This document shows, one piece after another, positions 1 through 39,125 of a stretch of DNA of 64,000 nt. Under the pieces are notes generated by a model that saw only the letters and a program-made list of their open reading frames with translations, was not told where the DNA came from and did not search any database. Source of the stretch: Effusibacillus dendaii. Its GTDB lineage: Bacteria; Bacillota; Bacilli; Tumebacillales; Effusibacillaceae. The stretch is from assembly GCF_015097055.1 (NCBI RefSeq), contig NZ_AP023366.1, positions 2,755,001 through 2,819,000 on the forward strand. The letters run 5' to 3'. Every line of letters begins with the position of its first letter. The first letter of the stretch is position 1. The position numbers and the translations under genes are program-made.

Positions 1-167
1 AACTGCCATATTGCCAGTTGAACTGTAATTTGAGATTAGTGCCATCTTCTAAATCCGTGGTATTTCATTATCTTAGAAGCTTACCGCAAGCCATTTACAT
101 AGTCTGACCCCAGCCACGAGAAAACGGGTGTCCCATGTGTCCCCGGCGAACGGAGATGTATGCGATC

Positions 168-2966: not shown

Positions 2967-4004
2967 ATGATTCGGACCGCGATTATCGGAGCGTCAGGAT
3001 ATACGGGGATTGAATTGCTCAGGTTGCTGCATCGCCATCCGCAGGCAGAGGTGACAATGGTAACAGGGGATTCAACGGCAGGAAAACAGATCACCGAAGT
3101 GTACCCGCATCTGCAGGAGATCTATCAGCAGACGGTGGAGGCGGTAGACCCGCAGCGAATAGCGGAACAAGCGGACATTGCGTTTCTTGCGATGCCAAGC
3201 GGTCACGCGACAGAGATTGTGCCTGCGCTGTTAACAAACGGCATTCGCGTCATCGATTTAGGCGGCGATTTGCGGCTGCCTGCCGATCTCTACCGGACCT
3301 GGTACGGGAAAAATCCGGTTCCGGCAGATGTGCAGCAACAAGCGGTGTATGGTCTTTCCGAATGGTTCTGCGATGAAATCCAAAATGCCCGTTTGATTGC
3401 AAACCCCGGTTGCTATCCGACAGCTACGCTGCTGGCTTTACTGCCTCTGGTGAAAGCGGGAGCGATTGAACCGGATTCGATTATAGTGGATGCGAAATCT
3501 GGCGTATCGGGCGCTGGACGAGGCGTTGCACTCGGGTCGCTTTTTTCCGAAGTGAATGAGAATTTTAAAGCATACAAAGTGAATCAGCACCAACACACTC
3601 CGGAAATTGAACAGCAGTTGGCGCGGGTGGCGGGCGAACAGATAACGGTTACGTTTACGCCCCATTTGGTTCCGATGACCAGAGGGATTTTGGCGACTTG
3701 TTACGGCAAAGTCAAGGAAGGCTGGACACAACGCCGCTTGATGGACTTGTATACAGACGTTTATGCAGGAAAGTCTTTTGTACGGATCCGACCGTTCGGA
3801 AATTATCCGCAGACAAAAGAAGTGACCGGCAGCAATTTCTGTGATATCGGGCTGTCGCTTGACGAACGGACGGGGCGCCTGACGGTCTTGTCGGCGATCG
3901 ACAATCTGGTGAAGGGTGCTTCCGGTCAAGCGGTGCAAAATCTTAACATCATGACGGGGATGCCGGAGACGGAAGGTTTGTTGTCTGTACCGATGTATCC
4001 GTAG
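2967..4004 (+). CDS. argC: N-acetyl-gamma-glutamyl-phosphate reductase
   Basis: ArgC reduces N-acetylglutamyl phosphate to the semialdehyde with NADPH, the third step of arginine synthesis. The 345 residues start with the nucleotide-binding GASGYTG motif (8-14), and the catalytic cysteine lies in NPGCYPTA near residue 149. The start has GGAGAGG upstream. It is the first gene of argCJBD and sits directly behind the ArgR-type promoter; argJ follows after 15 bases. Confidence 0.97.
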   Translation: MIRTAIIGASGYTGIELLRLLHRHPQAEVTMVTGDSTAGKQITEVYPHLQEIYQQTVEAVDPQRIAEQADIAFLAMPSGHATEIVPALLTNGIRVIDLGGDLRLPADLYRTWYGKNPVPADVQQQAVYGLSEWFCDEIQNARLIANPGCYPTATLLALLPLVKAGAIEPDSIIVDAKSGVSGAGRGVALGSLFSEVNENFKAYKVNQHQHTPEIEQQLARVAGEQITVTFTPHLVPMTRGILATCYGKVKEGWTQRRLMDLYTDVYAGKSFVRIRPFGNYPQTKEVTGSNFCDIGLSLDERTGRLTVLSAIDNLVKGASGQAVQNLNIMTGMPETEGLLSVPMYP

Positions 4005-4019
4005 GAGGAATCTAAACAG

Positions 4020-5246
4020 ATGGGCAGTCCATTTTCAATTCTTGCAAATGGCGGGGTCACGTCCGCTAAAGGATATAAGGCAGCCGGTGTAGCGGCAGGC
4101 ATTAAGAACGGAAAAAAAGAAAAACGAGATGTGGCGCTGCTCGTGTCGGACGTACCGGCTGCTGCTGCCGGGGTCTATACCACCAACGCGGTTCAGGCGG
4201 CTCCTCTGCTTGTTACAAAAGAAACAGTCTCGCAAAATGGGCTCCTGCAGGCAGTCATTGTCAATGCCGGCAATGCAAACGCCTGTACAGGCGAGCAGGG
4301 TATGAAGGACGCCCGCCGGATGCAGGAATTAACGGCAGAAGCGTTGCAGATCAAAGCGGAACATGTAGCCGTTGCATCGACAGGTGTAATTGGTGTTTTA
4401 ATGCCGATGGACCGGGTATCCGCCGGTATTGCGGAAGCAGGCAAAATGGTCAGCCTGGAAGGCGGCTCTGATTTTTCGGAAGCGATTTTGACGACCGACC
4501 TGGTGAAGAAGGAAATCGCTGTCCAGTTGGAAATTGACGGACAGGCGGTAACCATTGGCGGTGCTGCGAAAGGGTCTGGCATGATCCACCCGAACATGGC
4601 CACGATGCTTGGATTTATTACAACAGACGCGAAAATCGGGCAAACCGACTTGCAAGAACTGTTGCGGCAGGTTACAACTCGAACATTTAACCGGATCACA
4701 GTCGATGGGGATACCAGCACGAACGACATGGTGATTGTGCTTGCCAACGGGAAAGCGAAAAACCAGACATTGTCCCCTTCTCATCCGGCGTGGAGCCAAT
4801 TTGTCGAGGCGTTTGAACATGTAGCGCTTTATCTGGCGAAATCGATTGCCCGTGATGGGGAAGGCGCGACTCGGCTGGTTGTCGCCGAAGTGACGGGCGC
4901 CCGCTCGGAATCCGATGCGGAAATGGCGGCCAAAACGATTGTCGGGTCGAGTCTCGTCAAAACGGCTGTATTCGGTGCAGATGCCAATTGGGGACGATTA
5001 ATGATGGCGGTTGGAAAATCGGGTGCTTTCGTAGACCCCAACCAGGTAGAGATATGGATTGGATCTGTAAAAGTGGCGGAAAACGGGATGGGACTGGATT
5101 TTGACGAAGAAGCAGCCACGAAAGAACTGCAGCAAGATCCGGTTGTTTTTCGAATCAATCTGAATGTCGGTCAAGGTAAGGCAACTGCCTACGGATGCGA
5201 TCTGACTTATGAATATGTGAAGATTAATGGCAGTTACAGAACCTGA
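4020..5246 (+). CDS. argJ: Glutamate N-acetyltransferase / amino-acid acetyltransferase
   Basis: ArgJ transfers the acetyl group from N-acetylornithine to glutamate, recycling it, and in bifunctional forms also uses acetyl-CoA. The 408-residue precursor has the self-cleavage site in NMATMLGF, where Thr195 becomes the N-terminal nucleophile of the beta chain. The GSGMIHPN motif precedes it. AGGAGGAA at 4003-4010 overlaps the argC stop and sets the start. Whether this copy is bifunctional cannot be read from sequence alone; the separate synthase-like gene at 9297-9812 raises the question. Confidence 0.96.
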   Translation: MGSPFSILANGGVTSAKGYKAAGVAAGIKNGKKEKRDVALLVSDVPAAAAGVYTTNAVQAAPLLVTKETVSQNGLLQAVIVNAGNANACTGEQGMKDARRMQELTAEALQIKAEHVAVASTGVIGVLMPMDRVSAGIAEAGKMVSLEGGSDFSEAILTTDLVKKEIAVQLEIDGQAVTIGGAAKGSGMIHPNMATMLGFITTDAKIGQTDLQELLRQVTTRTFNRITVDGDTSTNDMVIVLANGKAKNQTLSPSHPAWSQFVEAFEHVALYLAKSIARDGEGATRLVVAEVTGARSESDAEMAAKTIVGSSLVKTAVFGADANWGRLMMAVGKSGAFVDPNQVEIWIGSVKVAENGMGLDFDEEAATKELQQDPVVFRINLNVGQGKATAYGCDLTYEYVKINGSYRT

Positions 5247-7438: not shown

Positions 7439-9145
7439 ATGGACATAAATTCAACCGACCCAACACTGCAAAACAGCGGTGCTGGAGTTGAGTCCGCGCA
7501 GCCGACATCAAACAAACTGAAAACGCCATGGAACAACCGAACGGTTGCCGAGTTGATTCTGGATCAGTTAAAGCTGTGGGGAGTAAAGCGAATATACGGT
7601 GTTGTGGGTGACGCGATTTTAGGACTGCTGGATGCGATCGCCAAGCAGGACGAGATTCGTTTTATTGCTGTGAAACATGAGTCGGCGGCAGCCATGATGG
7701 CGTCTGCGGAGGCCAAGTTGACAGGTGCGCTGGCCGTTTGTGCGGCTACTATGGGGCCGGGGTTGGGCAATCTGTTGAACGGATTGGGTGACGCCTATCT
7801 GGATAAAGCGCCTGTTCTGGTGATTACCGGGCAAGCGCCGACTGATAAGATTGGCACCGAATACAAACAGTATATTAACCAGCAGGAACTGATCAGACCG
7901 CTTGCGGCTTACAGCACACAGCTCGTAAGCCCTTTCGCGGTTGTTGAAGTCCTGGTCAAAGCGATGCAAACCTCTCTTACACAGGGGGCAGTCAGCCATC
8001 TCTCCATCCCCAAAGACATGTTTACGATGTTGATTCCTTCAAAGCTGCGCCCGAAAGCCACGGTCATAAAGGGAGCGGCGGCATTCCAAAAGGAGGATCT
8101 GCAACAAGCGCTGCAAATCATGGAATCTGCCAAACAACCGATGATTTTGGCAGGAATCGGAGCGAAACAGGCCGCTTCCCAGCTTGAAAAATTGGCCCGG
8201 CAGTGGGGGGCCGGCATATTGCTAAGCCTCGGGGCCAAAGGCATTCTGCCGGAGAGTTCCGACTATCTGTTGGGCGGCATTGGTCAGGGCGGCAATCCAT
8301 ATGCGGCAGATGTTTTCAAACAGGCAGATGTTGTGCTGCTTGTTGGGGATACATGGTGGCCGGAAGGGTATGTGCCTACAGATGCGCGGATTATCCAGAT
8401 CGACAATGATCCAGTCAATATCGCCAAGGGAATCCCTGTAGAAGTGGGCATTGTGGCTCAGTCACAAACGGTGGTTCCGTTGTTGGCAGAAAGTTTATCC
8501 AGTTACAAGGAAAATGACGATTGGATTTCCAGGTGGAAATCGGTCAAGCAGAGGTGGCAGAAGGAAAACGAGCAGGAAGGAAAGCAGTCTGGCTCTCCTA
8601 TCCACCCGGCACGGGTTGTCCGCGCAGTTGAAATGGCCGTACAGCCGGATGCGATCATTGCGCTGGATACAGGGAACCATACCGTTTGGATCAATCGAAA
8701 TTTCCGCGCCCAGAAGCAAGAGTTTCTGTTTTCCGGTGAATGGCGTACGATGGGCTTTGGACTGCCTGCTGCCATAGCAGCAAAACTGGTCTATCCGGAA
8801 AGACAAGTGGTGTGTATCGTCGGTGACGGCGGCATTGAAATGGTGTTAGCCGAGTTGTTGACAACTGTCCGCTACAAGCTGCCAATCATCGTAATTGTGT
8901 TGAACAACCATTCGCTGCAAATGGAAAGGGACAAAATGCAGGCTGGTGGATTTCAAGATACGGGCAGCACGGAATTGACCAACCCCGATTTTGTAAAATT
9001 GGCGGAAGCGTGTGGCTGGCAAGGAATTCGTGTCGATCGGGATAATCAACTGGACACAGCTTTACAACAAGCGCTCTCCCGCAATAAACCGACCCTTGTG
9101 GATATAACAACCTCTGCCGTAATGCACCCGGAAACGAAAGCATAA
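7439..9145 (+). CDS. TPP-dependent enzyme, pyruvate oxidase/acetolactate synthase-like
   Basis: The 568-residue protein has the three-domain plan of the POX/AHAS family: an N-terminal Pyr domain with the activating glutamate (KHESAAA, Glu81), a central domain, and a C-terminal PP domain with GDGGIEM (near 461) and a downstream NN pair. It most resembles the YdaP/pyruvate-oxidase type rather than IlvB, judging by LWGVKRIYGVVGD and the absence of an IlvN partner. The ATG follows GAGGAGA. Its place behind argD is unusual and its substrate is not decided here. Confidence 0.82.
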   Translation: MDINSTDPTLQNSGAGVESAQPTSNKLKTPWNNRTVAELILDQLKLWGVKRIYGVVGDAILGLLDAIAKQDEIRFIAVKHESAAAMMASAEAKLTGALAVCAATMGPGLGNLLNGLGDAYLDKAPVLVITGQAPTDKIGTEYKQYINQQELIRPLAAYSTQLVSPFAVVEVLVKAMQTSLTQGAVSHLSIPKDMFTMLIPSKLRPKATVIKGAAAFQKEDLQQALQIMESAKQPMILAGIGAKQAASQLEKLARQWGAGILLSLGAKGILPESSDYLLGGIGQGGNPYAADVFKQADVVLLVGDTWWPEGYVPTDARIIQIDNDPVNIAKGIPVEVGIVAQSQTVVPLLAESLSSYKENDDWISRWKSVKQRWQKENEQEGKQSGSPIHPARVVRAVEMAVQPDAIIALDTGNHTVWINRNFRAQKQEFLFSGEWRTMGFGLPAAIAAKLVYPERQVVCIVGDGGIEMVLAELLTTVRYKLPIIVIVLNNHSLQMERDKMQAGGFQDTGSTELTNPDFVKLAEACGWQGIRVDRDNQLDTALQQALSRNKPTLVDITTSAVMHPETKA

Positions 9146-9148
9146 GTA

Positions 9149-9188
9149 AAAGCCCCGGGAAAGTACATTTCTGCTTTGCCAGGGCTTT
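9149..9188. terminator. Probable terminator hairpin between convergent genes
   Basis: AAAGCCC and GGGCTTT pair with a partly paired interior. The plus-strand T run is short; on the minus strand TTTTA follows, so it may serve both directions. Confidence 0.5.
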
Positions 9189-9190
9189 CG

Positions 9191-9290
9191 TTTCACTATC
9201 GGAAAGTGTAATTTAAAGCGTGCGATAGTATAAGTTCAACTAGGCTTCCGTCTGCGCCAAAGGCTTAACGAAAGCCAAGTTTTCTTTATG
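9191..9290 (+). repeat. Interspersed intergenic repeat, copy 1
   Basis: About 100 bases that align, at roughly 70-75% identity by eye, with 58572-58667. Shared blocks include TTTCACTAT at the left, GGCTTCCG in the middle and AAGCCAAGTTTTCTTTATG at the right. The right half forms a hairpin (ACTAGGCTTC with GAAAGCCAAGT) followed by TTTTCTTTAT, so the element can also act as a terminator for the upstream plus-strand gene. Confidence 0.7.
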
Positions 9291-9296
9291 GCTGCT

Positions 9297-9812
9297 TTAT
9301 AGAACTTTCAAAGGAATTGGAGTTGTTTCATCCGGTTTGACCGGTAACGGACGAGTAACCGGCACGGTCAGAAGCATCGCGATTTCGTCACAGGTTAAAA
9401 ATTTGCTGCAGTTTACACAATCCTTCCATACTTTTTGCGGAAGGGTTTCTTTTTGTACGATTTGGAAGCCGCACTTTTGGAAGAATTCTACCTGATAAGT
9501 CAACGACAATATGCGCGGGATTCCTAACTGCTGCGATTCTTTTACCAGGATGGAGACCAGCTCGCGGCCAAGGCCCATCCCTTTTTTGTCGTGCGCAATT
9601 GCCAGCGAACGGATTTCAGACAAGTCTTGCCATAGAATATGCAATCCGCCAACACCAACGATACGCCCTTCCTCTTCCACGACTGTTAAAGATTGCAGGT
9701 TTTCGTATAGTGAAATACGCGGCCGTGGCAGCAGGAGTCCTTGATCCGCGTGGGACTGGATCAGTTCATAGATTGCCTCTGTGTCCGCCATTACGGCTTT
9801 GCGGAATTGCAT
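9297..9812 (-). CDS. GNAT acetyltransferase, N-acetylglutamate synthase-like
   Basis: The 171-residue protein is a single GNAT domain with the acetyl-CoA motif KKGMGLG (76-82). Its C-terminal part has QKVWKDCVNCSKFLTC with Cys132, Cys135 and Cys141, a feature I associate with short ArgA-like amino-acid acetyltransferases. Such enzymes make N-acetylglutamate, the first arginine intermediate, which fits its position between the two arginine operons. AGGAAG lies upstream of the start. Two weak ARG-box-like sites precede it. A different acyl acceptor remains possible. Confidence 0.72.
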   Translation of the reverse strand: MQFRKAVMADTEAIYELIQSHADQGLLLPRPRISLYENLQSLTVVEEEGRIVGVGGLHILWQDLSEIRSLAIAHDKKGMGLGRELVSILVKESQQLGIPRILSLTYQVEFFQKCGFQIVQKETLPQKVWKDCVNCSKFLTCDEIAMLLTVPVTRPLPVKPDETTPIPLKVL

Positions 9813-9826
9813 AGAACGTCACTTCC

Positions 9827-9862
9827 TAAATGAATATACAAAATCAAGTATAAGTATACATG
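9827..9862 (-). promoter_or_regulatory. Possible tandem ARG-box-like sites upstream of the acetyltransferase
   Basis: On the minus strand TGTAT-ACTT-ATACT and TGTAT-ATTC-ATTTA each miss the ARG-box core at two positions. Two overlapping TATACT words could serve as -10. The match is weak and is offered because the downstream gene is probably arginine-related. Confidence 0.3.
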
Positions 9863-10036
9863 CGGCAGCATGTCTCGTCTACTCGAAATTTGTCACGCTT
9901 CGGAAACGAGCAGGTTTTTGACACAGCCCAATTCTCTGTATACAGGCGGCAGTCCAGCCGTTTGAACGAAGTCTGACATATGATAAGGGTATGAACGGCT
10001 ATAGTGTAATATCGTGAAAAGAAAAGAGGGGATGGC

Positions 10037-10189
10037 ATGGTTCCGTACGGAGTCGGCAGAGCACCCGGCGGAGTGGCCGGGGCTCCCTGGGGATTTGGTG
10101 CTGGATGGTCCGCTTGGGCCATCGTGTTTCTGATTGCATTTGCCTTTTTCTTTGCATTCGCATGGGGGTGGGGAGGCTACTGGTGGTGA
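10037..10189 (+). CDS. Small YjcZ-like membrane protein, probably spore-associated
   Basis: Fifty residues: a Gly/Pro-rich start (VPYGVGRAPGGVAG), then one hydrophobic segment (AWAIVFLIAFAFFFAFAW) and a GWGGYWW tail. The layout of a glycine-rich leader with a single membrane helix is that of the YjcZ/SscA family of small sporulation proteins. The ATG follows GAGGGG with five bases spacing. A terminator lies at its stop codon. I infer expression in sporulation from the family; no clear sigma site was identified upstream. The stretch 9863-10036 holds nothing else I can support. Confidence 0.7.
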   Translation: MVPYGVGRAPGGVAGAPWGFGAGWSAWAIVFLIAFAFFFAFAWGWGGYWW

Positions 10190-10214
10190 GGCGGCTCTTG
10201 TGGTCGCCTTTTTT
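10189..10214 (+). terminator. Terminator after the YjcZ-like gene
   Basis: AGGCG pairs with CGCCT around an 11-base loop, followed by six T. The stem starts at the last base of the stop codon. Confidence 0.7.
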
Positions 10215-10335
10215 CGATTGGCAGGAAATTAAAAAATTATCCGCGATTCGCTAGGATATATCAACCCGATGGAGAATGTAGAATTAGAAAACTTCATATT
10301 GATCGTTAAGAGAGGGTAAAGGAGGGTATATAAGT

Positions 10336-11460
10336 ATGAAAATCAGAGCCGCCGTGCTGCACGAAATGAAACTGGAAGCTCCCTATGCAATCAGCCAACC
10401 GTTAAAAATTGAACAGTTGGAACTGGATGCTCCCAAGTATGGCGAGGTATTGGTGCAAATCAAAGCTACAGGTCTGTGCCATTCCGATCTTTCTGTTATC
10501 AACGGTTCGCGACCGCGGGTGATGCCCATGGCGCTTGGACATGAAGCAGCCGGGATTGTGGTAGAAACAGGCGAAGGGGTAACCGATCTGAAACCGGGTG
10601 ATCATGTTGTCTGTTCATTCGTACCAAGCTGCGGGCACTGTCTGCCTTGTCAGGAAGGACGTCCGGCGCTGTGCGAACCAGGCGCGCAAAGCAATACGGC
10701 TGGCACGTTGTTAAGCGGAGAACGCAGACTTCACGCTGGAAATCAGGAGATTCATCACCATTTAGGCGTCTCCGGTTTTGCCGAATATGCGGTTATCGCG
10801 CGCAATTCACTGGTTAAAGTAGATCCTGATGTTCCGTTTGAACAGGTGGCGTTGTTTGGTTGCGCCGTGATGACGGGAGTCGGAGCCGTGATCAACACGG
10901 CTCGTGTAGAAGCGGGCAGCACGGTGGCAGTGGTCGGTTTAGGCGGTGTTGGTTTGAGCGCTTTGCTGGGAGCGGTTGTAGCAGGTGCCCGGCGAATTGT
11001 GGCGGTTGATCTGAACCCGAATAAACTGGAACTGGCGAAGCAGTTGGGTGCCACCGACGTGTTTGATTCGCGTGACCCGGAAACGGTGCAGAAAATTCGT
11101 GCGGCCACCAACGGTGGTGTCGATTATGCATTTGAAACAGCGGGTGCAGTTCCTGCGATGCAAGTTGCCTACCAGATTACTCGCCGGGGAGGGACCACTG
11201 TCACGACCGGATTGCCTGATCCCAGCCATCAGTTTTCGTTTCCGCAGGTGACGTTAACGGCAGAGGAACGAACAATTAAAGGATCGTATGTCGGCAGTTG
11301 TGTTCCTTCCCGGGATATTCCGCGCTACATCGAACTTTTTAAACAGGGACGTCTGCCGGTAGACCGGATTTTGACAGGAACCGTTTCTTTGGAAGAGCTT
11401 AACGAAGGATTTGACCGTTTACATAAAGGCGAAGCATCCCGTATTGTGATGGTGCTGTAA
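10336..11460 (+). CDS. Zinc-dependent alcohol dehydrogenase
   Basis: The 374-residue MDR-family enzyme oxidises alcohols or reduces aldehydes with NAD(P). Catalytic zinc ligands appear as Cys48 (GLCHSDL) and His69-Glu70 (GHEAAG); the structural zinc site is Cys99, Cys102, Cys105, Cys113 (CGHCLPC...C). The Rossmann motif is GLGGVG near residue 200. The length and extended loop resemble class III-like (formaldehyde dehydrogenase-type) members. The start has AAAGGAGGG upstream. The gene has its own terminator and no operon partner; its substrate is unknown. Confidence 0.9.
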   Translation: MKIRAAVLHEMKLEAPYAISQPLKIEQLELDAPKYGEVLVQIKATGLCHSDLSVINGSRPRVMPMALGHEAAGIVVETGEGVTDLKPGDHVVCSFVPSCGHCLPCQEGRPALCEPGAQSNTAGTLLSGERRLHAGNQEIHHHLGVSGFAEYAVIARNSLVKVDPDVPFEQVALFGCAVMTGVGAVINTARVEAGSTVAVVGLGGVGLSALLGAVVAGARRIVAVDLNPNKLELAKQLGATDVFDSRDPETVQKIRAATNGGVDYAFETAGAVPAMQVAYQITRRGGTTVTTGLPDPSHQFSFPQVTLTAEERTIKGSYVGSCVPSRDIPRYIELFKQGRLPVDRILTGTVSLEELNEGFDRLHKGEASRIVMVL

Positions 11461-11509
11461 GCGATCTGACCGATCTGTGTTGCGCTCCCAATAAAAGGGT
11501 TTGTCGGGG

Positions 11510-35335: not shown

Positions 35336-35368
35336 GTGCCGTTTAAGGTGTTTTTCTCAATAAGTAAA

Positions 35369-35416
35369 ACTGCCGGTCACGGTCAAATTTTACCTTTCCT
35401 GACCGTGACCGGCAGT
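35369..35416. terminator. Long perfect hairpin after uvrA, probable terminator
   Basis: ACTGCCGGTCACGGTCA at 35369-35385 pairs with its exact complement at 35400-35416: 17 bp, 14-base loop. Looser pairing continues outside. The T run is weak on both strands, so the stem length is the main evidence. Confidence 0.65.
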
Positions 35417-35515
35417 TCTTATTTACATAAAATGTACTGTTTTTGTTTGAAGTGATCCCCAGTATTTTTCATGAAAGACGGTGCCAACCGTATAATGCAT
35501 AATACATAACGGATA

Positions 35516-36082: not shown

Positions 36083-36496
36083 TTCCCGTCCCCCCTTAGG
36101 GGAATACATTATTTTCCAACAGGTCGTCTTGTGTACGGCTTATTTGGCATGCTCATTTCTTAGCTTCGTTCGATTGTCATGGATTTCAGACTTCCGACTC
36201 CGTTTACTCTGTGTGGTGTAAGTACGTCACAAATGCGGTTTTTGTATCGCGTAGTCTCAGGGGTTGATCGGCAAACGAGAAACTGATCTCCTCGTATTAA
36301 AATAAGATAAAATAGGAAAGGATAGGATCAAAACTTGCAGGCAGCATAGACTGAACTGCATATATGGGAACAGGGTTAGAAAAATAATTAAGGGAAGAAC
36401 ATTGTTTAAATTACAATATTAAGAATTAACGGGATTATAATTATCTGTTGATACATGCACTTCGGTTTTTTGGGGGACAAGTGAGAAGAAAGCACG
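36083..36496. other. AT-rich intergenic stretch without recognisable gene
   Basis: About 410 bases between the IS110 tail and the recombinase element. I see a CCCCCCTTAGGGG-type hairpin just after the transposase frame, perhaps part of the IS end, and no coding frame with family resemblance. Base composition drops well below the neighbours, consistent with foreign or decaying DNA. Confidence 0.6.
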
Positions 36497-36521
36497 TCGT
36501 ACAATGACAGTTGTTCGACAT
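36497..36521 (-). repeat. Outer inverted repeat, left copy (candidate recombination site)
   Basis: This 25-bp sequence is the exact reverse complement of 37589-37613. Inside it, arms TCGTACAA and TTGTTCGA flank a 6-base centre TGACAG; the arms are inverted repeats of each other at 7 of 8 positions. That arm-spacer-arm layout is typical of tyrosine-recombinase crossover sites. Confidence 0.75.
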
Positions 36522-36610
36522 GTTTTTACAATATACGACTAAATTCCACGCTAATTATATCACAAAGTGAAGTAATATATTCGAAATTATAAGTGAATCA
36601 ATATAATTTA

Positions 36611-36637
36611 AAAGATTTCTTTTAAGTAGTCTTCCAC
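36611..36637 (-). repeat. Inner inverted repeat, left copy
   Basis: This 27-bp sequence, encoding the recombinase C-terminal residues VEDYLKEIF on the minus strand, is the exact reverse complement of 37461-37487. Confidence 0.9.
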
Positions 36638-37460
36638 ATAATCCGGCGCCGCTTTTTCCATCTGCTCTACAGTGTGCAAATAACGCTGGGTGGTAGTTAT
36701 TCGAGAATGGCCAAGCGTTTCCTGCACTTGTTGCAGGGAAGCTCCATGCAGTATGGCTAATGTAGCACTGGTATGTCTAAGCCAATGAGGGGTTACTTTC
36801 TTTTTTAATTTGATTTGCTCGCGGGCCTTCTGAATAATGCGCTCTACTTGTCTAACTGTTATAGGAAAAATGAGTTGATCAGATTTTCGTTTTTTATATG
36901 TTTGACGAGAACCGCCGATCAGTTGATGTACATATTACAGAGATTGCGCACTTTGACTCACGTTGTTTTTCCTCCTATTGTCCCTCCATCACAGTTAACC
37001 AAACAGAGGTTTCTGCCGGATCGCTATGAAAATGCCCCCATTTAATGGAAACCAACTCGGATACCCGCAGTCCCAATAAAACGAGACTTACCCCGATCAG
37101 ATAATCGCGGTATCCTTGGTGTCTTAGTTGATTCAATAATTGTATAACTTCCCGTTTGGTCAGATAGTGATTTTTACTATTTACTTGCACTTTTGGCGTT
37201 TGTACGGAGGTTGTCGGATTGTTTGCAAAAACGCCTCTATTCGAATCACTTCCCCATTTATATAAAGATCGAAGTGGGGCGATTAGACTTGCAATGGTAG
37301 CCGATGTTAAAGGTTTGCGGTTTTTATTCCCGAATCCTTGTTCTAAGGCAATTTTATATACTTCAATTTCCCTCCAAGTGACTTCACGTAAGCGCTTGTA
37401 GGCAATAAATTTTCGGAATCTATGAATAGCTTGATAGTAGTTTCGAAACGGTGGCGATAT

Positions 37461-37487
37461 GTGGAAGACTACTTAAAAGAAATCTTT
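37461..37487 (+). repeat. Inner inverted repeat, right copy
   Basis: Exact 27-bp inverse of 36611-36637, lying in the N-terminal part of the recombinase frame, where it introduces the stop after IIKDFF. Its outer 12 bases (AAAGATTTCTTT on the minus strand) code for KDFF and are naturally complementary to the C-terminal AAAGAAATCTTT. Confidence 0.9.
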
Positions 37488-37588
37488 GATGATTTGTTCA
37501 TCAGAATATTCTTCGATGTTGTTTCTGTCATCTAGGATATCAATTGTCATAAGTCCTTGCCCTTCCATAAAACTTTCCTCCCTTTTAT

Positions 37589-37613
37589 ATGTCGAACAAC
37601 TGTCATTGTACGA
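37589..37613 (+). repeat. Outer inverted repeat, right copy (candidate recombination site)
   Basis: Exact inverse of 36497-36521. Arms TCGAACAA and TTGTACGA surround CTGTCA. It lies 107 bases before the Spo0E-like gene and about 20 bases before the recombinase start on the other strand. Confidence 0.75.
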
Positions 37614-37719
37614 ATTTAATATTACCAATTTTTTAATTTGGTTAACATATTTTAGATGTTAAAAAGGACGTTGAATGATTGTTGGATGTATACATCTGTA
37701 CGAGAGAGGGTAAAAAATC

Positions 37720-37908
37720 TTGAATGATCTGGAACATCTCAAGAAGCAGATAGAGGATATAAGGAATCAACTTCACGCCGCTTTTCAAGGCAAGCGTAAA
37801 TTTTCTGATCCGGAGGTGTATCGCCTAAGCGTGCAGCTTGATCATGCGCTTTTCGAGTATCAGAACCATCTTCTGTCAGGTATCATGAGTCGATCTGGGG
37901 TGAAGTAA
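37720..37908 (+). CDS. Spo0E-like sporulation regulatory phosphatase
   Basis: The 62-residue protein has the two-helix plan of the Spo0E family: a charged first helix (LKKQIEDIRNQLHAAFQG) and a second with SVQLDHALFEYQ (37-48), close to the family signature SQxLDxxI..Y. Spo0E proteins dephosphorylate Spo0A-P and delay sporulation. Here the signature glutamine is replaced by Val38, so activity is uncertain. The start is TTG after GAGAGAGGG. Its stop overlaps the ATG of the EAL gene (TAATG), implying coupled translation. Confidence 0.75.
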   Translation: MNDLEHLKKQIEDIRNQLHAAFQGKRKFSDPEVYRLSVQLDHALFEYQNHLLSGIMSRSGVK

Positions 37909-38621
37909 TGAATGCAGTTTTGTGGAGAAATATTGAATTGTTTCCTCTATACCAGCAAATTGTGAAATTGATGGAGCCTTCAACAGAATTCGCCTATGAA
38001 GCGACCATTCGGGGGAAGACACCTTCGGGAAAGCAGATTCCACCTTCCGTTTTATTCAGACAGGCAGGAAAAGAGCAGATGTTTCTGGATTATAAAGCAC
38101 GCCATATTGCAATTCGAGAGGCAGCTCCGCTGATAAAAGACTCCTCGCTTCTGTTTCTCAACTGCCATGTTCTGTCGTTACAGGCAGGATTTGTTTTTGA
38201 AGATATCTCAAAGCTTGAAGTGCCGATTACCCAACTCGTATTAGAAATAACGGAACAAACACGAATTGAAAATATGGAAGTTTTGAAACAGGAGTTAGAT
38301 GTGCTCCGGAAACAAGGTGTAAAGGTCGCTCTTGACGATTTTGGGGCTGGATTTTCAAATTTTGCGTTGGTCGAAGCATTCCAACCTGACTTTATCAAAC
38401 TGGACCGATCAATCATTTCATCATTAGATCATTCGGCTCAGTCACGTAGAGTTATGGAAGGAATGGTGTCGTTTGCTGAAAAGGTCAATACCATCCTGAT
38501 CGCTGAAGGCATTGAACGAGAAGAACAGAGAGATATTTTAGTAGAATTGGGTGTTGCGTATGGGCAGGGATTTTTTCTTGGTTATCCGTTTACACCCACA
38601 AAACAACGATATTGTCAATAG
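37908..38621 (+). CDS. EAL-domain protein, probable c-di-GMP phosphodiesterase
   Basis: The 237-residue protein is a stand-alone EAL domain. The namesake motif is EAT (Glu31), and the other catalytic and metal residues appear present: Asn85, Glu113, Asp143-Asp144 in LDDFGAG, Lys164, Glu200 in AEGIE, Gln220. It therefore should hydrolyse c-di-GMP, although the EAL-to-EAT change deserves a test. No sensory or membrane domain is attached. It is translationally coupled to the Spo0E-like gene, suggesting a link between c-di-GMP and Spo0A phosphorylation. Confidence 0.87.
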   Translation: MNAVLWRNIELFPLYQQIVKLMEPSTEFAYEATIRGKTPSGKQIPPSVLFRQAGKEQMFLDYKARHIAIREAAPLIKDSSLLFLNCHVLSLQAGFVFEDISKLEVPITQLVLEITEQTRIENMEVLKQELDVLRKQGVKVALDDFGAGFSNFALVEAFQPDFIKLDRSIISSLDHSAQSRRVMEGMVSFAEKVNTILIAEGIEREEQRDILVELGVAYGQGFFLGYPFTPTKQRYCQ

Positions 38622-38756: not shown

Positions 38757-39125
38757 ATGGCAAAGATTTTAATAACAGACGACTCCCTATTTGCTCGAAA
38801 AGTTCTCGCCCGCATACTCCAAAAAGCGGGTCACATGATTGTTGGTGAAGCCAAAAACGGAATTGAGTCAATAGAAAAATACAAGCAACTTCGACCTGAT
38901 TTGGTCACAATGGATATTACGATGCCTGAAATGGACGGAATGAGCGCCTTGAAAGAAATCAAAAAGACAGATCCAGACGCAATCGTTATTATGTGCACGG
39001 CAATGGGACAGAGTTTTTTAATTTCGGAAGCCATATTGGAGGGTGCTCAAGATTTTATTATCAAACCATATTCAGAGCAGGCCATTTTGAAGGCCATCGA
39101 GAACTCCATATCAAAACAAACATAA
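38757..39125 (+). CDS. CheY-like single-domain response regulator
   Basis: The 122-residue receiver domain keeps the acidic pair Asp8-Asp9, the phospho-acceptor Asp53 (VTMDITMPEMDG), the switch Thr81 and Lys103 (KPYS). It has no output domain, as in CheY or Spo0F. The ATG follows GGAGG by 10 bases. A perfect AATGTTC/GAACATT dyad lies about 60 bases upstream. It may act in chemotaxis or in the phosphorelay; the neighbouring Spo0E-like and EAL genes do not settle which. Confidence 0.88.
   Translation: MAKILITDDSLFARKVLARILQKAGHMIVGEAKNGIESIEKYKQLRPDLVTMDITMPEMDGMSALKEIKKTDPDAIVIMCTAMGQSFLISEAILEGAQDFIIKPYSEQAILKAIENSISKQT

Follow-up and report, generated by a model that had tools for sequence, protein, structure and literature searches.

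A candidate invertible promoter cassette that carries its own tyrosine recombinase and adjoins signaling genes in Bacilli

The window analyzed here is a stretch of 64,000 nt (G000:C1:2755001-2819000) from a 3.45-Mb single-contig genome. It contains a damaged tyrosine recombinase gene enclosed by a pair of inverted sites, followed by genes for a Spo0E-like and an EAL-domain protein (Table 1). The two arms of the pair, 25 bp each (36497 to 36521 and 37589 to 37613), are inverted and 100% complementary, with 1,067 nt between them; the pair is unique within the window at 3 mismatches or fewer and appeared in 0 of 100 shuffles. The perfect inverted repeats that the initial annotation had placed around a tyrosine recombinase gene are thus confirmed, with 0 expected by chance, as is the proposed arm-center-arm plan with one 6-base center in both copies, which is seen in the 24-nt cores. 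No direct repeat is found just outside positions 36496 and 37614, so the window copy has no target-site duplication; such duplications had been named beforehand as an argument against inversion.

Table 1. Features of the element in the window and of the adjoining predicted target operon
Feature	Position	Strand	Remarks
Tail recombination site, 24-nt core	36496..36519	+	GTCGTACAA-TGACAG-TTGTTCGAC; center 36505-36510; inverted copy at 37591-37614
Non-coding strip at the tail; promoter-like -10 TGATATAAT directed outward	36520..36607	-	Weak -35
Tyrosine recombinase pseudogene, XerA/XerC/XerD-like, PF00589 family	36608..37568	-	In-frame stops, frame change near 36925-36948
Inverted 30-nt duplicate of gene 3' end (36611-36640)	37458..37487	-	Near gene 5' end, adds stop
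Recombinase head leader, RBS-like GGGAGG	37569..37590	-	Too short for promoter
Head recombination site, 24-nt core	37591..37614	-	+ strand GTCGAACAA-CTGTCA-TTGTACGAA; center 37600-37605
Spo0E-like gene, PF09388	37720..37908	+	First of predicted target operon, reads away from element
EAL-domain gene, PF00563, predicted c-di-GMP phosphodiesterase	37908..38621	+	Second of predicted target operon

The recombinase gene had been described as broken, which is borne out by its stops and frame change. It aligns in two pieces, at 64% and 77% identity, with an intact paralog encoded in the same genome. A second perfect inverted repeat, overlooked in the initial annotation, lies inside the gene and consists of two 30-bp copies, the upstream one of which (with respect to the gene) replaced the local sequence; judging from this arrangement, it looks like the product of a templated repair event. 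The protein family matches the Pfam domain PF00589 with an E value of 3e-26, and residues R168, K197, H262, R265, H288, and Y297 are invariant in seven intact relatives. The nearest protein families are XerA, XerC, and XerD, and the nearest solved structures include XerA (5hxy). The scores with the XerC, XerD, and XerA models (136, 121, and 154 bits) are far below the respective curated cut-offs (335, 330, and 220 bits), so that the family is not classed with these Xer recombinases, and the models for tyrosine-type DNA invertases give weak matches. Like the sites of this family, dif sites consist of arms around a 6-bp center; however, dif is a single site, whereas the family has paired inverted sites.

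The Spo0E-like open reading frame (ORF) starts 106 nt beyond the right site, in agreement with the distance of about 107 bases given earlier for the Spo0E-like/EAL operon, and the EAL gene, also transcribed away from the element, starts 294 nt past that site. A CheY-like response-regulator ORF (38757-39125) is found downstream on the same strand and may be cotranscribed with the EAL gene. On the other side of the element, a perfect 18-bp inverted repeat with a 14-nt loop (35368-35417), possibly a terminator, directly follows a uvrA-like gene.

A profile built from seven intact recombinases retrieved 44 close relatives from GTDB contigs, representing Paenibacillus, Brevibacillus, Aneurinibacillus, Cohnella, Tepidibacillus, and others. 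Among sampled genomes, it had matches in 19 of 301 at the level of the class, in 84 of 400 (about a fifth) within one family, and in 8 of 40 within another; since some of the elements are identical to Paenibacillus, Cohnella, and Brevibacillus records, these two families are presumably Paenibacillaceae and Brevibacillaceae. Once duplicates had been removed, 135 different elements remained, each flanked by an inverted pair; they come from Paenibacillaceae, Brevibacillaceae, and other families of Bacilli. Their sites follow a rough consensus, GTCGTACAA-N6-TTGTNCGAC, with arms of 9 to 11 bp around the 6-bp center. This center occurs in about 46 forms, and its two copies disagree in 0 of 131 elements (128 plus 3 more), a count to be read with the reservation that the search for site pairs favors matching arms, although inspection of the loci that it had missed showed matching centers in those with two sites as well. 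This identity is most simply explained if the two ends recombine again and again, a process that both requires and restores it. Six loci appeared to be without repeats in the automatic search: three of these (L160, L176, and L200) do have the pair, with a longer tail, two (L071 and L124) represent one split variant, and one (L030) has runs of N over both sites. The latter belongs to Tepidibacillus decaturensis, in which both sites are likewise covered at L024 (5933-6000 and 7084-7435), reflecting either an assembly gap or masking. The centers also differ among the copies in all 12 genomes with several read copies; we set this observation aside as evidence, since chance alone makes nearly all of them differ. 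On one contig (L023 of G002, positions 8297-11492), an EAL gene separates an intact element from a further recombinase copy, which is truncated, points the other way, has retained only its tail site, and adjoins a methyl-accepting chemotaxis protein (MCP) gene.

In 134 of the 135 elements, one side and only one adjoins an outward-reading gene of the classes given below; the exception (L055) ends at a contig break. These neighbors comprise 93 HD, 19 CheW, 6 MCP, 6 Spo0E-like, 3 EAL, 3 GGDEF-EAL, and 4 SecA genes, so that a signaling gene (HD-GYP, EAL, GGDEF-EAL, MCP, CheW, or Spo0E-like) is found in 130 of 135 cases; this count is partly circular, as the classes were defined on the relatives found first before being tallied across the larger set, although HD-GYP, EAL, MCP, and CheW are independent families. 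The HD-GYP signature is present in 98 of 102 HD neighbors, and Pfam confirms examples of the neighbor classes. The SecA-like gene is faced by the element in Paenibacillus dendritiformis and three relatives (L057, L129, L130, and L132). The target gene is located at the head side in 104 of the 134 elements and at the tail side in 30.

Each element has a tail strip of about 50 to 140 nt, longer in a few cases, that follows the stop codon of the recombinase gene. The motif TTGnnn-16..18-TATA[AC]T is found in this strip pointing outward in 62 of 135 elements and inward in none, with 1.6 expected, and a weight-matrix scan (P below 0.05) yields outward hits in 17 of 49 tail strips and inward hits in 6. 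Going by sequence only, the outward promoter of the family would be of the sigma-A type. A clear -35/-10 pair is absent from about half of the tail strips, including that of the window copy. The outward minus-strand TATAAT reported for the left end of the window element is indeed present (36559-36554), is directly preceded by TGA, which makes it an extended -10 (TGnTATAAT), and agrees with the outward direction conserved across the family. Terminator-like hairpins are seen beyond the non-target end in 30 of 130 elements, versus 9 of 130 at the target end. At their head end, the elements are too short to hold a promoter, and no promoter driving the recombinase was found. A recombinase promoter straddling the head site, with its -35 in the flank and its -10 in the outer arm, was also considered and rejected, as the -35 scores hardly exceed random ones.

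The initial annotation had argued that inverted sites would flip rather than excise the segment and had suggested a search of relatives for either orientation and for an intact recombinase. Both orientations are found at orthologous loci of relatives, the opposite of the refuting outcome named beforehand, which supports inversion; intact genes are present in relatives as well. A comparison of collinear flanks, starting at each site, gives 16 pairs of elements in which the two flanks are exchanged, so that the segment has opposite orientations at one and the same locus; these pairs are not independent, as several of them share L181 or L158. The swapped flanks are 89% identical over 759 bp and 79% over 1,870 bp in L181 and L183, 78% over 2,653 bp and 90% over 94 bp in L055 and L056, and 90% over 802 bp and 68% over 230 bp in L158 and L164. 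On the recombinase tree, there are 18 changes of orientation relative to the target, at least 13 of which are forced by well-supported branches. In addition, three contigs (L179, L192, and L199) end on the last base of a site, another (L055) ends 100 bases after the site, i.e., 127 bases from its start, and in L182 the head site runs into 72 bases identical to the element's own tail flank. Such breaks at the sites are presumably a product of short-read assembly in the presence of both orientations, and would thus be an indirect sign of inversion within one culture.

Taken together, these data make it very probable that the element, 1.1 kb long and widespread, is a self-contained invertible promoter cassette, which uses its own tyrosine recombinase to switch a neighboring signaling gene, and that the window copy is a damaged member of this family. 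From the layout of sites, genes, and promoter-like motifs, we infer the strand-exchange chemistry, promoter activity, ON/OFF assignment, and phenotype as follows. The recombinase encoded inside the segment would exchange strands between the two inverted sites and thereby turn the segment around, with the 6-bp center of each site needing to match only that of its partner. A sigma-A-type promoter at the tail, just behind the recombinase gene, would point out of the segment. With the tail towards the signaling gene, this gene would be transcribed (ON), whereas with the head towards it there would be no transcription from the cassette (OFF). The switch would thus split the population into cells that differ in their c-di-GMP or chemotaxis state. 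As the promoter would lie at the tail, the OFF orientation is predicted for the majority of the sequenced genomes. The window copy has its head towards the Spo0E-like/EAL operon and is therefore predicted to be OFF for it; as its own enzyme is dead, it would be frozen in this state unless an intact paralog works in trans.

The same genome has two paralogous elements besides the window copy (copy A). Copy B (3491-4554) has a recombinase pseudogene, precedes a paralogous Spo0E-like/EAL pair, and is head-facing like copy A. Copy C (about 1950666-1951810) has an intact recombinase gene (G000:C1:1950796-1951755) and its tail towards a chemoreceptor gene. The centers are TGACAG in copy A, TGCATG in copy B, and GACGAG in copy C, and the two ends of each copy match perfectly. 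One reading is that the family is an invertible switch of which the window copy is a frozen OFF relic without help in trans, its target being under another promoter or silent. We give this reading an even chance; it does not conflict with the main account of the family, and its alternative is that copy C still flips the window copy. The broken recombinase genes of the two head-facing copies fit a relic, as do the sites of copy C, which have three additional bases, TTG, between the arms (GACGAGTTG), so that its enzyme may not fit the sites of copies A and B. However, the site pairs of copies A and B are still perfect despite the decay of the genes, which suggests either recent decay or ongoing recombination in trans. 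Action of copy C on the window sites is possible given these perfect sites but doubtful given the altered spacing in copy C.

Inversion might also serve the maintenance of the element itself or the switching of its own recombinase, with any effect on the neighbor being incidental. As the head has no room for a recombinase promoter, inversion would put the gene behind a different flank, as expected from such a role. We nevertheless regard it as improbable, since both the outward promoter and the class of the neighbor are conserved and a split variant in Paenibacillus fonticola (L071 3544-3784 and L124 2544-2784) retains the promoter alone between the sites. The recombinase gene lies immediately outside this segment of 241 bp, in which TTGTGA-17-TATAAT is directed towards CheW-like and MCP-like genes. 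Least probable of all is a small transposon that uses the repeats as terminal inverted repeats for its movement and the signaling genes as tolerated insertion places: several copies per genome are indeed found at different loci in some genomes, and copy B shares 86% identity with a copy from Tepidibacillus, which is assigned to another family, although the neighbors differ, but each end holds a whole arm-center-arm site whose center varies between copies and never between ends, the window copy lacks a flanking duplication, the elements almost always lie beside one functional class of gene that is read outward, no plasmid or phage match was found at an E value of 1e-40, and the occurrence of both orientations at orthologous loci with both flanks conserved largely refutes this explanation.

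With its inverted sites, both orientations between related species, and an outward promoter sequence, the cassette thus appears to be an invertible promoter switch, or inverton, and combines features of several known systems. The Salmonella Hin segment (hixL-hin-hixR) is about 1 kb long and has its invertase gene inside, whereas the genes for the fim recombinases, FimB and FimE, are outside the segment. In one orientation, the Hin segment brings its promoter up to the neighboring fljBA operon (PMC9368917). The layout, a segment between inverted sites, is alike in the two cases; Hin, however, belongs to the serine recombinases and has a Fis-bound enhancer (PMC3798978), whereas the enzyme of this family is a tyrosine recombinase. 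The element is therefore not of the Hin type, and no homology is claimed; the targets also differ, flagellin in one case and c-di-GMP and chemotaxis genes in the other. The fimS element of Escherichia coli is a 314-bp promoter-bearing segment flipped by a tyrosine recombinase (PMC9993118), which makes it similar in enzyme class and promoter, but the family described here encodes the recombinase inside the segment. In its target, the family resembles the Clostridioides difficile pdcB switch (Cdi2), in which inverted repeats surround an invertible promoter before a c-di-GMP phosphodiesterase gene (PMC9286219). Cdi2 measures 174 bp, its 19-bp repeats are imperfect, and the recombinase acting on it was still to be identified in that study (PMC9286219); Cdi2 is too short for a recombinase gene, whereas the family segment contains one. 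The part of the literature covered by the search contains no description of this family and no matching report of invertible promoters in Paenibacillus or Brevibacillus. Colony phase variation has been reported in Paenibacillus polymyxa without a known mechanism (PMC3694910).

We slightly favor the broader view that a single tyrosine recombinase lineage found in several families of Bacilli forms a dedicated portable switch for c-di-GMP and chemotaxis functions, each cassette combining its enzyme and promoter with a private six-base address; this address would change jointly at its two ends and so allow several cassettes on one chromosome to flip independently. The natural series of matched centers also offers candidate orthogonal recombination sites. 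The switch is present in about a fifth of the sampled genomes of one large family, mostly beside c-di-GMP-degrading or chemotaxis genes, and, if the proposed mechanism is true, it would allow populations of these Bacilli to divide, heritably and reversibly, into cells of different c-di-GMP or chemotaxis state.
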